Positions 57,214 to 64,000 of a DNA stretch of 64,000 nucleotides are shown here, piece after piece. This DNA is from Candidatus Zymogenus saltonus (GTDB lineage Bacteria > Desulfobacterota > Zymogenia > Zymogenales > Zymogenaceae): NCBI GenBank assembly GCA_016929395.1, contig JAFGIX010000010.1:1-64000 (forward strand). The letters are read 5' to 3'. A program made the position numbers and the translations under genes. Under the pieces are notes generated by a model. That model searched no databases and had not been told where the DNA came from. It saw only the letters and a program-made list of their open reading frames with translations. Position 1 is the stretch's first letter. Each line of letters begins with the position of its first letter.

Positions 57214-57516
57214 ATGCATCTGTCCAGAGATTCGATCATCAAGGCCCTGTCCGGCTCGGCCGGGGAGATAAGAGAGAAGTTCGGCGTCAGGAAGATCGGG
57301 CTTTTCGGGTCATACGCCGAGGGCGGGGAAGAGAGCCTGAGCGACATCGACATCCTGGTGGAATTTGAGAAGAACACGCTGGACAACTACATGGATCTCA
57401 AGGTCTTTCTCGAAACGCTATTCAACCGCGACGTCGACCTCGTAATCGAAGACAACCTGAAGCCGCGGCTCAGACCGAAAATCCTAAAAGAGGTCATCTA
57501 TGCCGAGGGACTATAA
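57214..57516 (+). CDS. MNT-type nucleotidyltransferase (antitoxin of a HEPN/MNT pair)
   Basis: A 100-residue minimal nucleotidyltransferase. GLFGSYAEGGEESLSDIDILVEF near residue 29 gives the G-S and D-x-D motif, and DVDLVIED near residue 74 a third acidic residue. MNT antitoxins neutralise HEPN RNases by AMPylating them. TAAGGGAAA is the ribosome binding site. It overlaps the HEPN gene by 17 bases, so the pair is one unit. Confidence 0.9.
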   Translation: MHLSRDSIIKALSGSAGEIREKFGVRKIGLFGSYAEGGEESLSDIDILVEFEKNTLDNYMDLKVFLETLFNRDVDLVIEDNLKPRLRPKILKEVIYAEGL

Positions 57517-57948: not shown

Positions 57949-59220
57949 TCATAATCCCCCCAACTCCCTCACAGCCGCCTCCACGGTGTAAAAGGAGCCG
58001 GTAACGACGACGCGTCCCCCTTCCCCCGCAAAGTCTCTTGCGGCGGAGAGCGCCTCGGTCATATTGTCGAATAACCTGACGGGCGTCTTGAGGCAAGAGG
58101 CATCCCTTGCCATTTCATCGACGCCCGCCGCCCTGGGGACGTTAAGCCCCGTCAGGAAAATCCCCTCCCCCTCGAGGTCGAGGATCTTGAGGAAGCCCTT
58201 TATATCCTTGTCTCTCATCATCCCGACCACGAAGGCGGTCTTCTTAACGGGTAGCGTCGTCAGGTGCTCGACAAGTGCCATGGCGGCATCCACGTTGTGG
58301 GCGACATCCACGATCACCTCGGGACTCCTGGCGATCACCTCCATCCTCCCGGGGAGGTAGATGTTTCCCACGCCCTCCTTCATCGCGCCCCCGGGAACTT
58401 TGTATCCCATCTCCCTTAAGACCTCGAGGACCGCCAGGGCGACGGCCACGTTCTGAGCCTGGTGCGCCCCGGGAAGGCCTATGGATATATCAGAGAGGGT
58501 GAACTCGATCCCGCGGTAGACGGCGTCGCCCGCCTCGTCCAGATCGTAGCTGAAATCCTCGCCCAGGAAATAGGACGCGGCGCCGCGCTCCTCCGCCTCG
58601 CCCTTGAGGAGCGACCTCACGGAATCGTCGACCCTGCCTACGATGAGCATGCCCCCCTCCGGCAGAATTTGGACCTTTTCAAGGGCGATCTCCTCCGGTG
58701 TCCTGCCGAGGTACTGGGTGTGATCGAGGGAGACGTTGGTGATGACGGAGACGGCCGGCATCCCCACGTTCACGGCGTCAAAGCGCCCCCCCAGCCCCAC
58801 CTCCATTACGGCCGGATTCACCCCGACATCCTTGAAGTGAACGAAGGCCATGAGCGTTATGAACTCGAAGTAGGTGGGCTTGAGAGGGGTATCCACGATC
58901 TCCCTGACCCTATTTATCAGGGAGGCGGCTTCGGATACCGTTATCATCTCGCTTCCCACGATTATCCTCTCCCTGAAATCGACGATGTGGGGGGAGTAGT
59001 AGAGCCCGGGCTTGTATCCAGCCGCGGCAAGGGCCGATCCGATAAAAGACACCACCGACCCCTTGCCGTTGGTCCCCCCCACAACGATTTTATTCAGCGC
59101 CTCGTGGGGATCGCCCATAAGGGCGAGCGCCCGCTCCATAACCGTAAGGTCGGTCCTTATCCCCCTGGCGTTCAGGCTTTCCAGATAGGCAAATTCTTTA
59201 TCGATCTTCCTCTCGTCCAT
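57949..59220 (-). CDS. folC: Dihydrofolate/folylpolyglutamate synthase
   Basis: A 423-residue Mur-ligase-type enzyme. VGGTNGKGSVVSFIGSAL near residue 47 is the ATP loop, SVITNVSLDHTQYLGRTPEEIA near residue 155 the second, and VDVAHNVDAAMALVEHL near residue 288 the Mur C-terminal motif. It adds glutamate to folates. ATG at 59220 matches the family N terminus; a GTG/ATG pair at 59235-59230 would add five residues. It follows accD after 210 bases. Confidence 0.96.
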   Translation of the reverse strand: MDERKIDKEFAYLESLNARGIRTDLTVMERALALMGDPHEALNKIVVGGTNGKGSVVSFIGSALAAAGYKPGLYYSPHIVDFRERIIVGSEMITVSEAASLINRVREIVDTPLKPTYFEFITLMAFVHFKDVGVNPAVMEVGLGGRFDAVNVGMPAVSVITNVSLDHTQYLGRTPEEIALEKVQILPEGGMLIVGRVDDSVRSLLKGEAEERGAASYFLGEDFSYDLDEAGDAVYRGIEFTLSDISIGLPGAHQAQNVAVALAVLEVLREMGYKVPGGAMKEGVGNIYLPGRMEVIARSPEVIVDVAHNVDAAMALVEHLTTLPVKKTAFVVGMMRDKDIKGFLKILDLEGEGIFLTGLNVPRAAGVDEMARDASCLKTPVRLFDNMTEALSAARDFAGEGGRVVVTGSFYTVEAAVRELGGL

Positions 59221-59430
59221 ATCCCCCTTCATCACAAACCGGTCATATTTACGTTTCAGATATATGGTTTTTCCCTTTAGAGAAAGTGTCTATTATCACA
59301 TTACTATATTTAAGAAAAGAATTTTTTTAGGTCCGGTAATTTTCGGCAAGGGCGTATCTTCACTCACAGCCGTCTTATCATCATTATATTATAGTTGGAT
59401 GGGGGGAGGGGGGCAAGTCAAAAGGGGGAG

Positions 59431-60267
59431 CTATTTTTTGGTCCTTTCCGTAAAGAACTCAAGCAGATGGAATATGGTATTCTTCATAGACTTTCGCTCT
59501 ACTATCATGTCTATCATCCCGTGCTTCAGAAGCTCTTCCGCCTTCTGAAAATTATCGGGGGGCTTCTGGTTTATCGTCTGCTCGATCACCCTGCGTCCGG
59601 CAAAGCCGATGACGGCACCGGGCTCCGCTATGTTGATATCTCCCAACATCCCAAAGCTCGCGGCGACGCCGCCCGTGGTTGGATTTGTAAGGATGGATAT
59701 GTAAGGCGCCCCTGAATCCTTCAGCCGCGATACGGCGCCGGTCGTCTTTGCCATCTGCATAAGCGAGATCAAACCCTCCTGCATCCGTGCGCCGCCGGAG
59801 GCAACAAAGGAGACAAGGGGAATTTTTTCTTTGGCCGCCTTCTCTGCTGCGAGCGTCACCTTCTCTCCCACCACGCTTCCCATGCTGCCGCCCATGAAGT
59901 CGAAATCCATGACCGAGATTACGACGTCGATGCCGGAGATCTTGGCGCTGCCCGTGACAACGGCCTCCGACTCCCCAGTTTTTTCCCGGGCGTTTTTAAT
60001 CCTATCAGGATACGGTCTTTCATCGACGAAACCGAGGGGATCCCCGGGCTTGAGGTCGGAAAAAAGCTCTTTTAAGCTATCCCTGTCCGTAACGGTTTCT
60101 ATCCGCTTTCTGGCGCCGATCCTGAAGTGATACCCGCATGAGGTGCAGACCGATAGATTTCTTTCGATCTCTCTCGAAAAGAGGGTATTGGAACAGCCCG
60201 GGCACTTCACCCAGTCCGCCGCCTCATCGAGCTTTACGCTTGAAGCCTTATCCTTTCTGATTCCCAA
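59431..60267 (-). CDS. accD: Acetyl-CoA carboxylase carboxyltransferase subunit beta
   Basis: A 278-residue subunit. CPGCSNTLFSREIERNLSVC with a following SCG is the four-cysteine zinc ribbon near residue 19; the crotonase core has VISVMDFDFMGGSMGSVVGE near residue 115 and FVASGGARMQEGLISLMQMAKT near residue 153. With AccA it transfers CO2 from biotin to acetyl-CoA, making malonyl-CoA. It starts with TTG at 60267 after AAGGA. It lies ten bases downstream of the cyclic-nucleotide phosphodiesterase gene. Confidence 0.97.
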   Translation of the reverse strand: MGIRKDKASSVKLDEAADWVKCPGCSNTLFSREIERNLSVCTSCGYHFRIGARKRIETVTDRDSLKELFSDLKPGDPLGFVDERPYPDRIKNAREKTGESEAVVTGSAKISGIDVVISVMDFDFMGGSMGSVVGEKVTLAAEKAAKEKIPLVSFVASGGARMQEGLISLMQMAKTTGAVSRLKDSGAPYISILTNPTTGGVAASFGMLGDINIAEPGAVIGFAGRRVIEQTINQKPPDNFQKAEELLKHGMIDMIVERKSMKNTIFHLLEFFTERTKK

Positions 60268-60276
60268 GATTGGTCC

Positions 60277-61068
60277 TTAAAATATAAACACCTGATCGTT
60301 TTCGAGGATTGATATGTCATCGTTATTCATTGCCTCAATCTCCCCCTTGATGATCTTATAGTACCTCGGCTTCAGGTGGTAGAGATATACCGGGATACCC
60401 CCGGTTTTGAATTTTTCCAGCTCTTTTTTCAGAGTATAGGGCGTAAGATGAAAACTCACATCCGCAACTCTTTGCAGGCTGCTGGGAAAAGAGGTCTCAA
60501 TAAAAATCGCCTTCAACCTGTTAAAATTCAGCGCCTCGTTGTTGGCAATCTCCCAGAGCTTATCCACGGGCCCCGTATCACCCGAAAATATTACGGACGA
60601 CCCCCCTTCAATAACGAGGTATCCAAACGCATCTATTGAGTGATTGACGGGAAAAGGCCTTACGGCTACTTCAGATGTCTTGCCCGCTTTACGATCCACG
60701 TTGGGTATCAACTCCTGCAGGTTGACCACTGGATCTTTCCCTGATTTGATTTTAGTGAAGTCGGGCCAGGTATGGTCGTTGAAAAAATGCTCTTTAAAGT
60801 CCGAGATCGTCGCTTTAGAGCCGTAAACAGTTATAGGCAGACCTTGTCTCTCGTAGGCGTTGTCCGACAAGAACGCAAGGTCTTTGGTGTGGTCGAGGTG
60901 AAAATGTGTTATAAAAACCTGTCTAACTTTATCCTGCTGATCGACAGTCAACTGGCCTGTAACGTGGCCGGCATCAATAAGTATCTCTTCGTTGATCAAG
61001 AAAGATGGAGGCCTTGTTCCTGGAATAATGCCGCCGTTACATCCTAAGACTTGAATCTTCATAGGCAT
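60277..61068 (-). CDS. Metallo-beta-lactamase-fold 3',5'-cyclic-nucleotide phosphodiesterase (class II-like)
   Basis: A 263-residue MBL-fold protein. THFHLDHTKDLAFLSD near residue 53 has the H-x-H-x-D-H metal site; VIFSGDTGPVDKLWE near residue 158 gives the Asp ligand; ETSFPSSLQRVADVSFHLTP near residue 182 resembles the conserved E-C/T-SFP...HLTP segment of class II cAMP phosphodiesterases (PDE1 type). It probably hydrolyses cyclic AMP or a related cyclic nucleotide. The ATG at 61068 overlaps the stop of the cNMP-binding regulator gene (TGATG). Confidence 0.82.
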   Translation of the reverse strand: MPMKIQVLGCNGGIIPGTRPPSFLINEEILIDAGHVTGQLTVDQQDKVRQVFITHFHLDHTKDLAFLSDNAYERQGLPITVYGSKATISDFKEHFFNDHTWPDFTKIKSGKDPVVNLQELIPNVDRKAGKTSEVAVRPFPVNHSIDAFGYLVIEGGSSVIFSGDTGPVDKLWEIANNEALNFNRLKAIFIETSFPSSLQRVADVSFHLTPYTLKKELEKFKTGGIPVYLYHLKPRYYKIIKGEIEAMNNDDISILENDQVFIF

Positions 61069-61724
61069 CAATCCAGGTCGCCGAATTGCTCTCTCAATAT
61101 GAGAAATTCCAGAAACTGTTTGAGTTTATCTTTGCTTGCCACAAATATCTCTTTATCCGATATCTCAATAATTTTTGCTTTTTGCAGCTTCTCTATTATT
61201 TCGGCGGCATGTTCAACATTTACTCCGGCCTTGTCGTACAACTCGTTCAGGGTAATATTGACAACAAAGCCGTTGTTCTTCTCCACCCCTTCCAACTCAA
61301 TTAGTCTCTCCAGGGTGTGAATCACCCTGCTGTTGGAGTCCTTTATCATCAATATCTCTATCCTCTTGTCGGTCTCCTGCAGGCGATCCGCGAGCTTTTT
61401 AATCATTCTGAGCGCAACCTCGTTATTGTTCTTTATCATCGTCTCAAAAGTCTTGGGATCGATAACCAACATCAAGCTGTCCTCGATGACCTCGGCCGTT
61501 GCGGACCTGGGCATGTTGCTGAGCGTTGCCATCTCACCGAAAAACTCCCCAGGCCCGAAGTTGGCCAGAACCGTCTCCTTGTCACCTATATTTTTCGATA
61601 TTTTTACCTTACCCTTGTGGATAACATACATCTCTTTGCTTTGAGTATCGCCCTCTTTAAAGAGGATAGTCCCCTTTATAAATTCGCGTCCGAACTTTTG
61701 CAGCAATAGGTCTTGTTCCGTCAT
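61068..61724 (-). CDS. CRP/FNR-type regulator with cNMP-binding domain
   Basis: A 218-residue protein. The N-terminal cyclic-nucleotide-binding domain has FGPGEFFGEMATLSNMPRSATAEV near residue 65; the FGE and RSA elements are the phosphate-binding cassette of true cNMP-binding proteins. A long linker helix and a C-terminal winged-helix-like region (NITLNELYDKAGVNVEHAAEIIEKL) follow, unusual in having no clear recognition-helix match to CRP. It overlaps the phosphodiesterase gene. Confidence 0.88.
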   Translation of the reverse strand: MTEQDLLLQKFGREFIKGTILFKEGDTQSKEMYVIHKGKVKISKNIGDKETVLANFGPGEFFGEMATLSNMPRSATAEVIEDSLMLVIDPKTFETMIKNNNEVALRMIKKLADRLQETDKRIEILMIKDSNSRVIHTLERLIELEGVEKNNGFVVNITLNELYDKAGVNVEHAAEIIEKLQKAKIIEISDKEIFVASKDKLKQFLEFLILREQFGDLD

Positions 61725-61783
61725 ATTGATCCCTCCAAGTTAGTATATCTAATTTACATAAAAAAAGTAATAAAGTCAAATGA

Positions 61784-63352
61784 TTATTCTAACGGTCCAT
61801 CCCCTGTTTTTTTGATTCTGCCGTTTTCATACGACACGATGAAGGCCTTGACAACTTCCGAGTCCAGCTGGGTGCCGGCCTGTTTTTTCAGCTCGTCGAT
61901 TGCCTCTCGGTCGCTTAGGGCCGCCCTGTAAGGGCGATCGGTCGTCATGGCGTCGAAGGTGTCCGCAACGGCTATGATCTTCGCCAAAAACGGGATTTCC
62001 TCGTTTTTCAGGCCTTCTGGATATCCATCACCGTCGATTCTCTCGTGGTGGTACTTTATAGCGGGCAGAACCTTTTCGAGCCTCTTGATATGTCTCAGTA
62101 TCTCTCCTCCAACGTTCGGATGACTCTTAATCTTCTCATACTCCTGTTCGCTCAATGGGGAATCTTTCCTTAAGATCGAATCCTCGATTCCGATCTTTCC
62201 GACGTCATGGAGTATCGAGGCGAGCCTCAGGCTCTCCCTTTCATCGTAAGAGAGATTAAAATACTCCGCCAAAACCATCGAGTACCTCATGACCCTTATC
62301 GTATGATTTCCCGTGTAAGGATCCCTTTTTTCGATGGCATCCGCCAGGGCCTCCGCCGTCTGGTAGAACGTTTCTCTCAAATCGTCGTGAAGCCTTGCAT
62401 TGTCCACCGCTATTGCAACCTGATGGGACAAGGATTTCAAAAGATCCAGGTCATATGTTACAAATTCCTTCTTCTCCAGCCTATTAATGGCCTGCAGGAC
62501 CCCTATCACCTTTTCGTTGATCACCATCGGCGCACAAACCATATTCCTCGTAACAAAAGTCGATTTTGCATCCGCCCGGTGTGAGTGCCTCTTGTCGCTT
62601 TTAACGTCATTTAACAACACCGCCTCGTTATTCTCCGCCACCCAACCCGCAATCCCCTCTCCCATCTTAAGACGAATCTCCTTGACCATGTCCCCCTTTT
62701 CGCCAAGCGCAACCTCGAAGTAGAGCTCGCCCTTTTCCTCATCGACGAGGAGGAGGGATGCGGTTTCGCAATCCAAGAGTCTTGTTACGGCTTCAATCGT
62801 TTTTTGCCTGACGATCTTCGGCTCCAGTGACAGATTTAGTATTCTCGATATCTCCATCAGCTCGGAGATTTTACCTATTCCCCTCTCTTTCTCCTTTATG
62901 AGTCTCATGTTTTCAAAGAACGGGGAGAGCTTTTGCGCCATCATCTCGAAAAAGACTATCTTATCGTATGAAAACACCTGGGAATTATTTTCATTTGCGA
63001 TTTTAAAAAAACCTATTGTCTCACCATGATTAATCACCGGTATATACGCAATCTTTCCGTAGTCCTCAAAACTCGACTTGCCCTCTTCAATCAGCTTGTA
63101 AACCACTTCCCCGTCCACAAAGCCGTTTTCCTCCAAGTCTTCCATTCCGTCTTTAATCAGACGAGAGGCGGATACCCTTTCGCAGGTGTTGTTACTGATT
63201 TTGTACATAGAATATCTGTTGCCGCCGACCTTTTCAAGAACCCTCTCGACGACATTCTCTATCAGGAGACCGATATCCATGTTCTCCTTAGTGAGCTTGG
63301 AAAACTCGCGAAAAATCAATGCATCAAGGTCTTTTATGCCGAATTTAACCAC
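61784..63352 (-). CDS. GAF-domain HD-GYP phosphodiesterase
   Basis: A 522-residue cytoplasmic signalling protein. Two GAF-type sensory domains (about residues 5-140 and 170-315; KMGEGIAGWVAENNEAVLLNDV is in the second) lead to a C-terminal HD-GYP domain: HDVGKIG near residue 387, HHERIDGDGYPEGL near residue 439 and later VADTFDAMTTDRPYR. HD-GYP enzymes hydrolyse cyclic di-GMP. The ligands of the GAF domains are unknown. GTG at 63352 is the start; no strong ribosome binding site. It lies 59 bases upstream of the cNMP regulator. Confidence 0.92.
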   Translation of the reverse strand: MVKFGIKDLDALIFREFSKLTKENMDIGLLIENVVERVLEKVGGNRYSMYKISNNTCERVSASRLIKDGMEDLEENGFVDGEVVYKLIEEGKSSFEDYGKIAYIPVINHGETIGFFKIANENNSQVFSYDKIVFFEMMAQKLSPFFENMRLIKEKERGIGKISELMEISRILNLSLEPKIVRQKTIEAVTRLLDCETASLLLVDEEKGELYFEVALGEKGDMVKEIRLKMGEGIAGWVAENNEAVLLNDVKSDKRHSHRADAKSTFVTRNMVCAPMVINEKVIGVLQAINRLEKKEFVTYDLDLLKSLSHQVAIAVDNARLHDDLRETFYQTAEALADAIEKRDPYTGNHTIRVMRYSMVLAEYFNLSYDERESLRLASILHDVGKIGIEDSILRKDSPLSEQEYEKIKSHPNVGGEILRHIKRLEKVLPAIKYHHERIDGDGYPEGLKNEEIPFLAKIIAVADTFDAMTTDRPYRAALSDREAIDELKKQAGTQLDSEVVKAFIVSYENGRIKKTGDGPLE

Positions 63353-63570: not shown

Positions 63571-64000
63571 TTACAGTTCGATCTTCGGAAGATCCTTTAA
63601 AGCCGCCTCGATCTTTTCGGAAGGATACTCGTAATCCTCCAGGTCCTTTGAGAAGTACTTATCGTACGCCGCCATGTCGAAATGGCCGTGTCCGGAGAAG
63701 TTAAAGAGGATGACCCTCTCCTTCCCCTCTTTCTTGGCCTCCAGGGCCTCGTCAATGGCCGCCCTTATGGCGTGGGAGGTCTCCGGCGCCGGGATGATCC
63801 CCTCGGTCCTTGCAAAGGTAACAGCCGCCTCGAAACAGGCGTTCTGATGATAGGCCACGGCGTCCATTAACTTCTGGTCGTAAAGGAGGCACATCGTGGG
63901 CGCCATTCCGTGATACCTCAGGCCGCCGGCGTGAATTCCGGGAGGCTCGAAGGTGTGTCCCAGGGTGTGCATGAAGAGGATTGGAGCGACCATCGCCGTA
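63571..64000 (-). CDS. TrpB2-type tryptophan synthase beta chain, C-terminal part (cut by window end)
   Basis: The last ~143 residues of a PLP-dependent TrpB-like protein. PILFMHTLGHTFEPPGIHAGG is the TrpB2 signature, IIPAPETSHAIRAAIDEA and VILFNFSGHGHFD close the active site. Its start lies beyond 64000, so the ATG at 63993 is only an internal codon. TrpB2 proteins make tryptophan from indole or serve as a salvage enzyme. Confidence 0.92.
   Translation of the reverse strand, partial: TAMVAPILFMHTLGHTFEPPGIHAGGLRYHGMAPTMCLLYDQKLMDAVAYHQNACFEAAVTFARTEGIIPAPETSHAIRAAIDEALEAKKEGKERVILFNFSGHGHFDMAAYDKYFSKDLEDYEYPSEKIEAALKDLPKIEL

Follow-up and report, generated by a model that had tools for sequence, protein, structure and literature searches.

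Why should genes for a cyclic-nucleotide receptor and for the enzyme that probably destroys its ligand lie immediately in front of accD, a gene of fatty-acid synthesis? The question is raised by a 64,000 nucleotide (nt) stretch of the Candidatus Zymogenus saltonus genome (contig JAFGIX010000010.1, positions 1 to 64,000; hereafter the window), in the last 6 kb of which genes for a GAF/HD-GYP protein, a CRP-like receptor, a class II phosphodiesterase (PDE), accD and folC are consecutive on the minus strand (Table 1). The original prediction, made from the window alone, placed the first four of these in a row, as they indeed are, and proposed that malonyl-CoA supply is tied to cyclic-nucleotide signals. 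Comparison with relatives points to one instance of an old, recurrent block, in which cyclic-nucleotide genes fill the slot that separates trpA from accD in a trpF-trpB-trpA-accD-folC housekeeping operon and would constitute a set-point module for cyclic AMP (cAMP) that is co-expressed with the biosynthetic genes. Taken as a whole, we regard this reading as evenly poised between right and wrong.

Gene neighbourhoods were mapped with profile hidden Markov models in 80 named loci and in 60 genome stretches from the window's phylum. The named loci were chosen by PDE similarity and the stretches by the outcome of the phylum search, so that fractions calculated over them are biased; a sample of 297 genomes of the phylum was drawn regardless of the locus. 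The general order in the relatives is trpF-trpB-trpA-(HD-GYP)-(receptor)-(CHASE2 adenylate cyclase)-PDE-accD-folC, with the genes in parentheses optional and nearly always positioned between trpA and accD/folC. This arrangement recurs in the window's phylum, Zetaproteobacteria, Nitrospirota, Myxococcota and Bdellovibrionota, at PDE identities to the window's enzyme of ~35-48% and with 4 nt overlaps in many loci, which rules out chance adjacency in one genome. There are 133 PDE loci in all; accD/folC are downstream in 90 of the 130 that could be evaluated for this, trp genes upstream in 49 of 123 and an HD-GYP gene upstream in 20 of 129. At the 42 loci that have both trpA and accD/folC, all 42 PDEs, all seven HD-GYP genes, the single cyclase and eight of nine receptors are located between them. 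The order trpF-trpB-trpA-PDE-accD-folC is present at 20 loci, PDE-accD-folC and PDE-folC at 11 loci each and rsmI-PDE-accD-folC, with accD further downstream, at 10; other loci have mixed patterns with HD-GYP, receptor and cyclase genes in the slot, and at 25 loci the PDE has none of these partners on its strand. A complete example (L168) reads trpF-trpB-trpA-HDGYP-receptor-PDE-accD-folC. The accD/folC label changes 11 times on the PDE tree, a FastTree tree with many weak forks. In Bacteriovoracia-type genomes the PDE gene follows rsmI (L049, L051, L054, L072, L078, L084, L089, L106, L109 and L113), a large gene on the opposite strand separates it from accD-folC, and in L051 and L113 this gene appears to encode a long exported protein.

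In the phylum sample, a PDE gene is present in 87 of the 297 genomes, 49 of which also have accD, and in 27 of those 49 it immediately precedes a same-strand accD, with profile-to-profile gaps of 22-195 nt. It adjoins folC, with no accD detectable, in at least 12 further genomes, and is beside trp genes alone at some other loci. Two genomes from the window's genus and family (G001 and G002; completeness 88-89%) have no detectable PDE, receptor, accD or folC, the block having been lost or lying in assembly gaps. For the receptor and PDE together, the predicted linkage with accD is borne out, as accD is directly downstream in 14 of 18 receptor-PDE loci with a readable downstream region. Two more have folC downstream, and the genomes that contain the last two have no detectable accD; a receptor-PDE pair independent of accD is therefore not the rule.

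Table 1. Features at the end of the window, in the order in which the minus strand is read; all families were called by Pfam and NCBIfam above curated cut-offs, except the window-truncated TrpB fragment.
Feature	Position	Strand	Family or remark
TrpB-like gene, 3' end	63571-64000	-	TIGR01415/PRK12391; upstream neighbour, truncated by the window edge
Terminator-like hairpin	63506-63489		after the TrpB-like gene
GAF/HD-GYP protein, probable c-di-GMP-type phosphodiesterase	61784-63352	-	HD_5, 138.8 bits (cut-off 27.2)
CRP-like cyclic-nucleotide receptor	61068-61724	-	cNMP-binding domain, 84.5 bits (cut-off 27.5)
Class II PDE, metallo-beta-lactamase fold	60277-61071	-	PF02112, 72.1 bits (gathering score 23.7)
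accD, acetyl-CoA carboxylase carboxyltransferase beta subunit with Zn ribbon	59431-60267	-	TIGR00515, 385 bits (cut-off 317)
folC, folylpolyglutamate/dihydrofolate synthase	57949-59235	-	completes the conserved accD-folC pair

In the window itself, trpF, trpB and trpA are missing from the slot that they fill in relatives, leaving the TrpB-like gene upstream and accD-folC downstream; at four loci (L057, L069, L174 and L176) a TrpB-like gene precedes trpF-trpB-trpA within the same cluster. The HD-GYP and receptor genes are 59 nt apart. The PDE start had been described as overlapping the receptor stop, which holds only if translation begins at the ATG within TGATG (61070-61066); the best alignment with homologues starts from the ATG at 61062, with 5 nt between it and the receptor stop, and the start is likely one or other of the ATG codons at 61062 and 61068. 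The gap before accD, given earlier as ten bases, measures 9 nt (60268-60276); accD starts with TTG and has AAGGA just upstream. The folC gene, also named as part of the joined module, is real and lies beyond the region assigned to that module, after a gap of 195 nt. A scan for promoters and terminators that might define transcription units gave matches at the level of shuffled sequence and was set aside. Elsewhere in the window, an open reading frame on the plus strand (57214-57516) resembles a minimal nucleotidyltransferase (GSYAEG...SDIDILVEF) of the kind typical of MNT/HEPN pairs, with no partner reading frame of at least 80 residues listed after it on the same strand.

The metallo-beta-lactamase fold is shared by enzymes with different substrates, RNase Z included, and the assignment of the PDE therefore matters. 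PF02112 is its best Pfam match, and residues H56, H58, D60, H61, H144, D165 and H232, the HxHLDH set and further metal ligands, are invariant across 18 homologues. An AlphaFold model (mean pLDDT, the predicted local distance difference test, 94) has yeast PDE1 (4ojv) as its best PDB match, with a template modelling score of 0.85 over the query, followed by YhfI, an enzyme reported to have a strong preference for cAMP and cyclic GMP (cGMP) over cCMP and cUMP (PMC9117128). The stretch FNxxIWPDFT is common to the window PDE and yeast PDE1. As an RNase Z the protein scores 52.4 bits against an NCBIfam cut-off of 292.95, and it also falls below the cut-off for PhnP; fold and motif thus favour a cyclic-nucleotide PDE over a tRNase Z, as had been predicted. 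With 45 bits against a cut-off of 400, it is not a member of NCBIfam cyc_nuc_deg_phdiest. From motifs and model we infer, with good reason, that it hydrolyses 3',5'-cAMP or cGMP.

The statement that the window has no adenylate cyclase fits the genome search, in which five PF00211 class III cyclase domains were found, all on other contigs. In relatives, class III cyclases are encoded upstream of PDE-accD at seven loci, in the orders cyclase-PDE-accD (L062, with a cyclase/PDE overlap of 4 nt, and L067), cyclase-receptor-PDE-accD-folC (L075 and the Anaeromyxobacter locus L081), trpA-HDGYP-receptor-cyclase-PDE-accD (L112) and cyclase-HDGYP-PDE-accD (L097), L091 being the seventh. All seven cluster cyclases scanned contain CHASE2, and catalytic residues are intact in the slot cyclases. 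A same-strand cyclase within 6 kb of the PDE is present at 15 of the 133 loci, ~20 times the 0.66 expected from the cyclase density of 59 relatives, with the caveat that related loci are not independent; the cyclase label changes 12 times on the PDE tree. Where the PDE gene is elsewhere (families f8, f24, f25, f27 and f54) it is also sometimes paired with a cyclase, and PDE-cyclase pairs lacking accD are present at L061, L133, L136, L139 and L144. All 16 of the Zetaproteobacteria with a PDE that were searched have class III cyclases, as do 16 of 18 relatives with a PDE; as the association in the 59 relatives was not significant, co-occurrence was dropped as proof of cAMP activity. In the eight genomes of family f11 (G013, G050, G085, G114, G142, G168, G193 and G259), several of which are only 80-86% complete, the PDE gene is mostly in the order PDE-accD-folC and cNMP-binding proteins are present; a class IV (CYTH) enzyme was considered as the missing cyclase and none was found. 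At L085 and L143, genes for a cyclase, HD-GYP protein, receptor and PDE form a seemingly whole cyclic-nucleotide circuit without accD, and the HD-GYP gene at these two loci, and also at L040 and L142, is preceded by a gene for a further protein containing one or two cNMP-like stretches.

In the receptor, the phosphate-binding cassette (FGEMATLSNMPRSATAEV, E64 and R73) is intact, E64 and R73 being invariant among orthologues, and there are a conserved dimerisation helix and a conserved extra C-terminal helix, ending approximately KExFG, that is absent from CRP. Mean pairwise identity among orthologues is 0.76 in the cassette and 0.61 in the cNMP domain, and conservation is lowest in the winged-helix region, at 0.25. 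A winged helix would in general be expected to be well kept among CRP orthologues. The recognition helix of CRP (SRETV-R) is not kept in this family, its recognition Arg and Glu not being conserved, whereas the same genome encodes a canonical CRP paralogue with ASRETVSR. A winged helix is probably still present, as HTH_Crp_2 (a helix-turn-helix, HTH, family) is matched marginally by the receptor (27.1 against 27.0 bits) and at E<=0.1 by 15 of 18 orthologues. The model contains its helices, with a predicted template modelling score (pTM) of only 0.50. Given the divergence of the winged-helix region, the receptor may be something other than an ordinary DNA-binding CRP, although it had been called a cNMP-binding regulator, and the family has perhaps given up ordinary DNA recognition. 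With its recognition helix so poorly conserved, the family is unlikely to have classical CRP-type promoter control as its shared function. The window has 12 CRP-type TGTGA-N6-TCACA sites with 14.2 expected, a chance level, and such sites were dropped as evidence of regulation. Elsewhere in the window's own genome (G000, contig C18, 2588-3223; L003 and L183) a second CRP-like member of this unusual family is encoded, whose C-terminal tail is similar and whose recognition helix is likewise non-canonical, with no PDE, accD or HD-GYP gene nearby. Stand-alone cNMP-binding proteins of 136-153 residues, lacking an HTH and close to the receptor's N-terminal half, are encoded at L185-L188 (families f19 and f39), with two in tandem at L187.

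A profile search found ten high-scoring receptor orthologues in the phylum sample. Four are in the order receptor-PDE-accD, three adjoin a PDE gene in genomes with no detectable accD, and three (G080, G024 and G061) are in the order trpA-receptor-accD, with folC on another contig and no PDE detected in the genome. The receptor's place in the slot is therefore independent of the PDE. In all seven accD-bearing genomes of the sample that have a full-length receptor, its gene is in the accD cluster.

Assembled into a mechanism, the PDE would hydrolyse 3',5'-cAMP (or cGMP) produced by class III cyclases, the latter encoded elsewhere in the window's genome, and the CRP-like protein would be the receptor for that nucleotide. 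Receptor and hydrolase would be transcribed with the biosynthetic genes, and expression of the anabolic block would therefore set both the cAMP level and the amount of receptor, giving a growth-linked set-point. HD-GYP enzymes act on molecules of the cyclic di-GMP (c-di-GMP) type and not on cAMP; the window protein, with its motifs intact (ILHDVGKIG and HHERIDGDGYP), is a probable c-di-GMP-type phosphodiesterase and would link the block to c-di-GMP turnover. Basic biosynthesis and cAMP levels being set together is what the arrangement suggests. Several results weigh against this. Promoter matches in the region, at shuffle level, do not establish co-transcription, and the marginal winged-helix match means that the receptor may still bind DNA. 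Among the 59 relatives there is no significant association between having the PDE and having a class III cyclase (Fisher p 0.31), and family f11 retains the PDE although a search covering two cyclase classes, PF00211 and CYTH, detected neither. The PDE gene is elsewhere in 22 of the 49 genomes of the sample with both PDE and accD, and the PDE tree cannot separate recurrent gain from repeated loss.

Retention of the PDE gene with folC alone or with trp genes alone, and the PDE-cyclase pairs that lack accD, are also consistent with a passenger: a cAMP PDE gene that landed in an ancestral trp-accD-folC operon, a linkage itself known (PMC2395257), and stayed there for its expression, other cAMP genes gathering around it later, with no functional link of cAMP to tryptophan, malonyl-CoA or folate synthesis. 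The three PDE-less genomes whose receptor gene lies between trpA and accD argue against this, as does the persistence of the arrangement, with its many overlaps, across phyla, and we consider it possible, on balance unlikely. The PDE might instead cleave another phosphodiester, such as 2',3'-cyclic nucleotides or the linear dinucleotides left by HD-GYP enzymes, so that receptor and hydrolase would have no ligand in common. Family f11, the non-significant co-occurrence with cyclases and the fold shared with RNase Z are in keeping with this, and PMC4222275 describes Sinorhizobium meliloti SpdA, studied around cAMP signalling, as a 2',3'-cyclic nucleotide PDE. The Pfam and structural matches, the stretch shared with yeast PDE1 and the excess of cyclases near the PDE all point the other way, making a different substrate improbable.

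The tie to malonyl-CoA originally proposed is kept in so far as accD is linked to these genes, but it is to the whole trp-accD-folC block and not to malonyl-CoA specifically, because the PDE gene still adjoins folC or trp genes in the absence of accD; for the same reason the malonyl-CoA claim is weaker than the set-point module. In its strong form, cyclic nucleotides would control malonyl-CoA supply, with either accD transcription or the AccA/AccD carboxyltransferase itself as the receptor's target. The receptor gene is indeed directly upstream of accD, without a PDE gene and with folC on another contig, in three genomes, and within the accD cluster in all seven accD-bearing genomes with a full-length receptor. 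In those three genomes, however, trpA also adjoins the receptor gene, so that nothing marks out accD in particular; no accD is detectable in three genomes that have the receptor, and the window contains about as many CRP-type sites as expected by chance. We think this form quite improbable. Least probable, and no better than a long shot, is that the CRP-like protein is a stand-alone cAMP sensor and not a transcription factor, exerting its effect through contact with proteins, a plausible target being the AccA/AccD carboxyltransferase or some other product of the block, and that the co-made PDE shuts the signal off; if true, it would amount to direct second-messenger control of fatty-acid synthesis over several phyla.

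The proposed set-point module in the trp-accD-folC operon joins parts that are all of known kinds in a combination, and with a spread, that appear to be undescribed. In the open-access literature, with most of the subscription literature outside the search, no paper was found that joins a cAMP phosphodiesterase with accD and folC, and no relevant open-access paper was found joining cAMP, phosphodiesterase, accD and trpA. Receptor, hydrolase and often cyclase genes in one slot over several phyla yield a concrete and testable proposal, namely that core anabolism and a second messenger are jointly set, and offer a set of cAMP systems in little-studied bacteria, with a CRP-like family that may lack ordinary DNA recognition.

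The backbone is that of the trpF-trpB-trpA-accD-folC split-operon neighbourhood of Xie and colleagues, cited in PMC2395257; the linkage of accD and folC to trpA has thus long been recognised, whereas the passages of PMC2395257 concerned do not mention any cyclic-nucleotide genes separating trpA from accD. AccR, a dedicated LysR-type activator of an ACCase (acetyl-CoA carboxylase) gene, is a comparable case in that its control is specific to a gene of this enzyme, but it belongs to an unrelated protein family and has no cyclic-nucleotide module in the abstract of PMC11602165. With E. coli CRP, T. thermophilus CRP (4ev0) and GlxR the receptor has in common a cNMP domain with the Glu/Arg cassette, the dimerisation helix and, probably, the winged-helix fold, and it differs from them in its diverged winged helix, lack of a conserved recognition-helix Arg and extra C-terminal helix. 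B. subtilis YhfI, M. tuberculosis Rv1339 (PMC9293780, a paper that does not mention accD) and Apyc1 (PMC9117128), atypical class II PDEs, are of the same superfamily and similar size, but the window PDE is outside their cyc_nuc_deg_phdiest family. It shares the HxHLDH motif, metal ligands, metallo-beta-lactamase fold and FNxxIWPD stretch with the typical class II (PF02112) enzymes yeast PDE1 and CpdP. Known here from its sequence and a model, it is ~100 residues shorter than yeast PDE1, with 22% identity in the structural alignment, and differs from the typical class II PDEs in that its gene sits in a biosynthetic operon.

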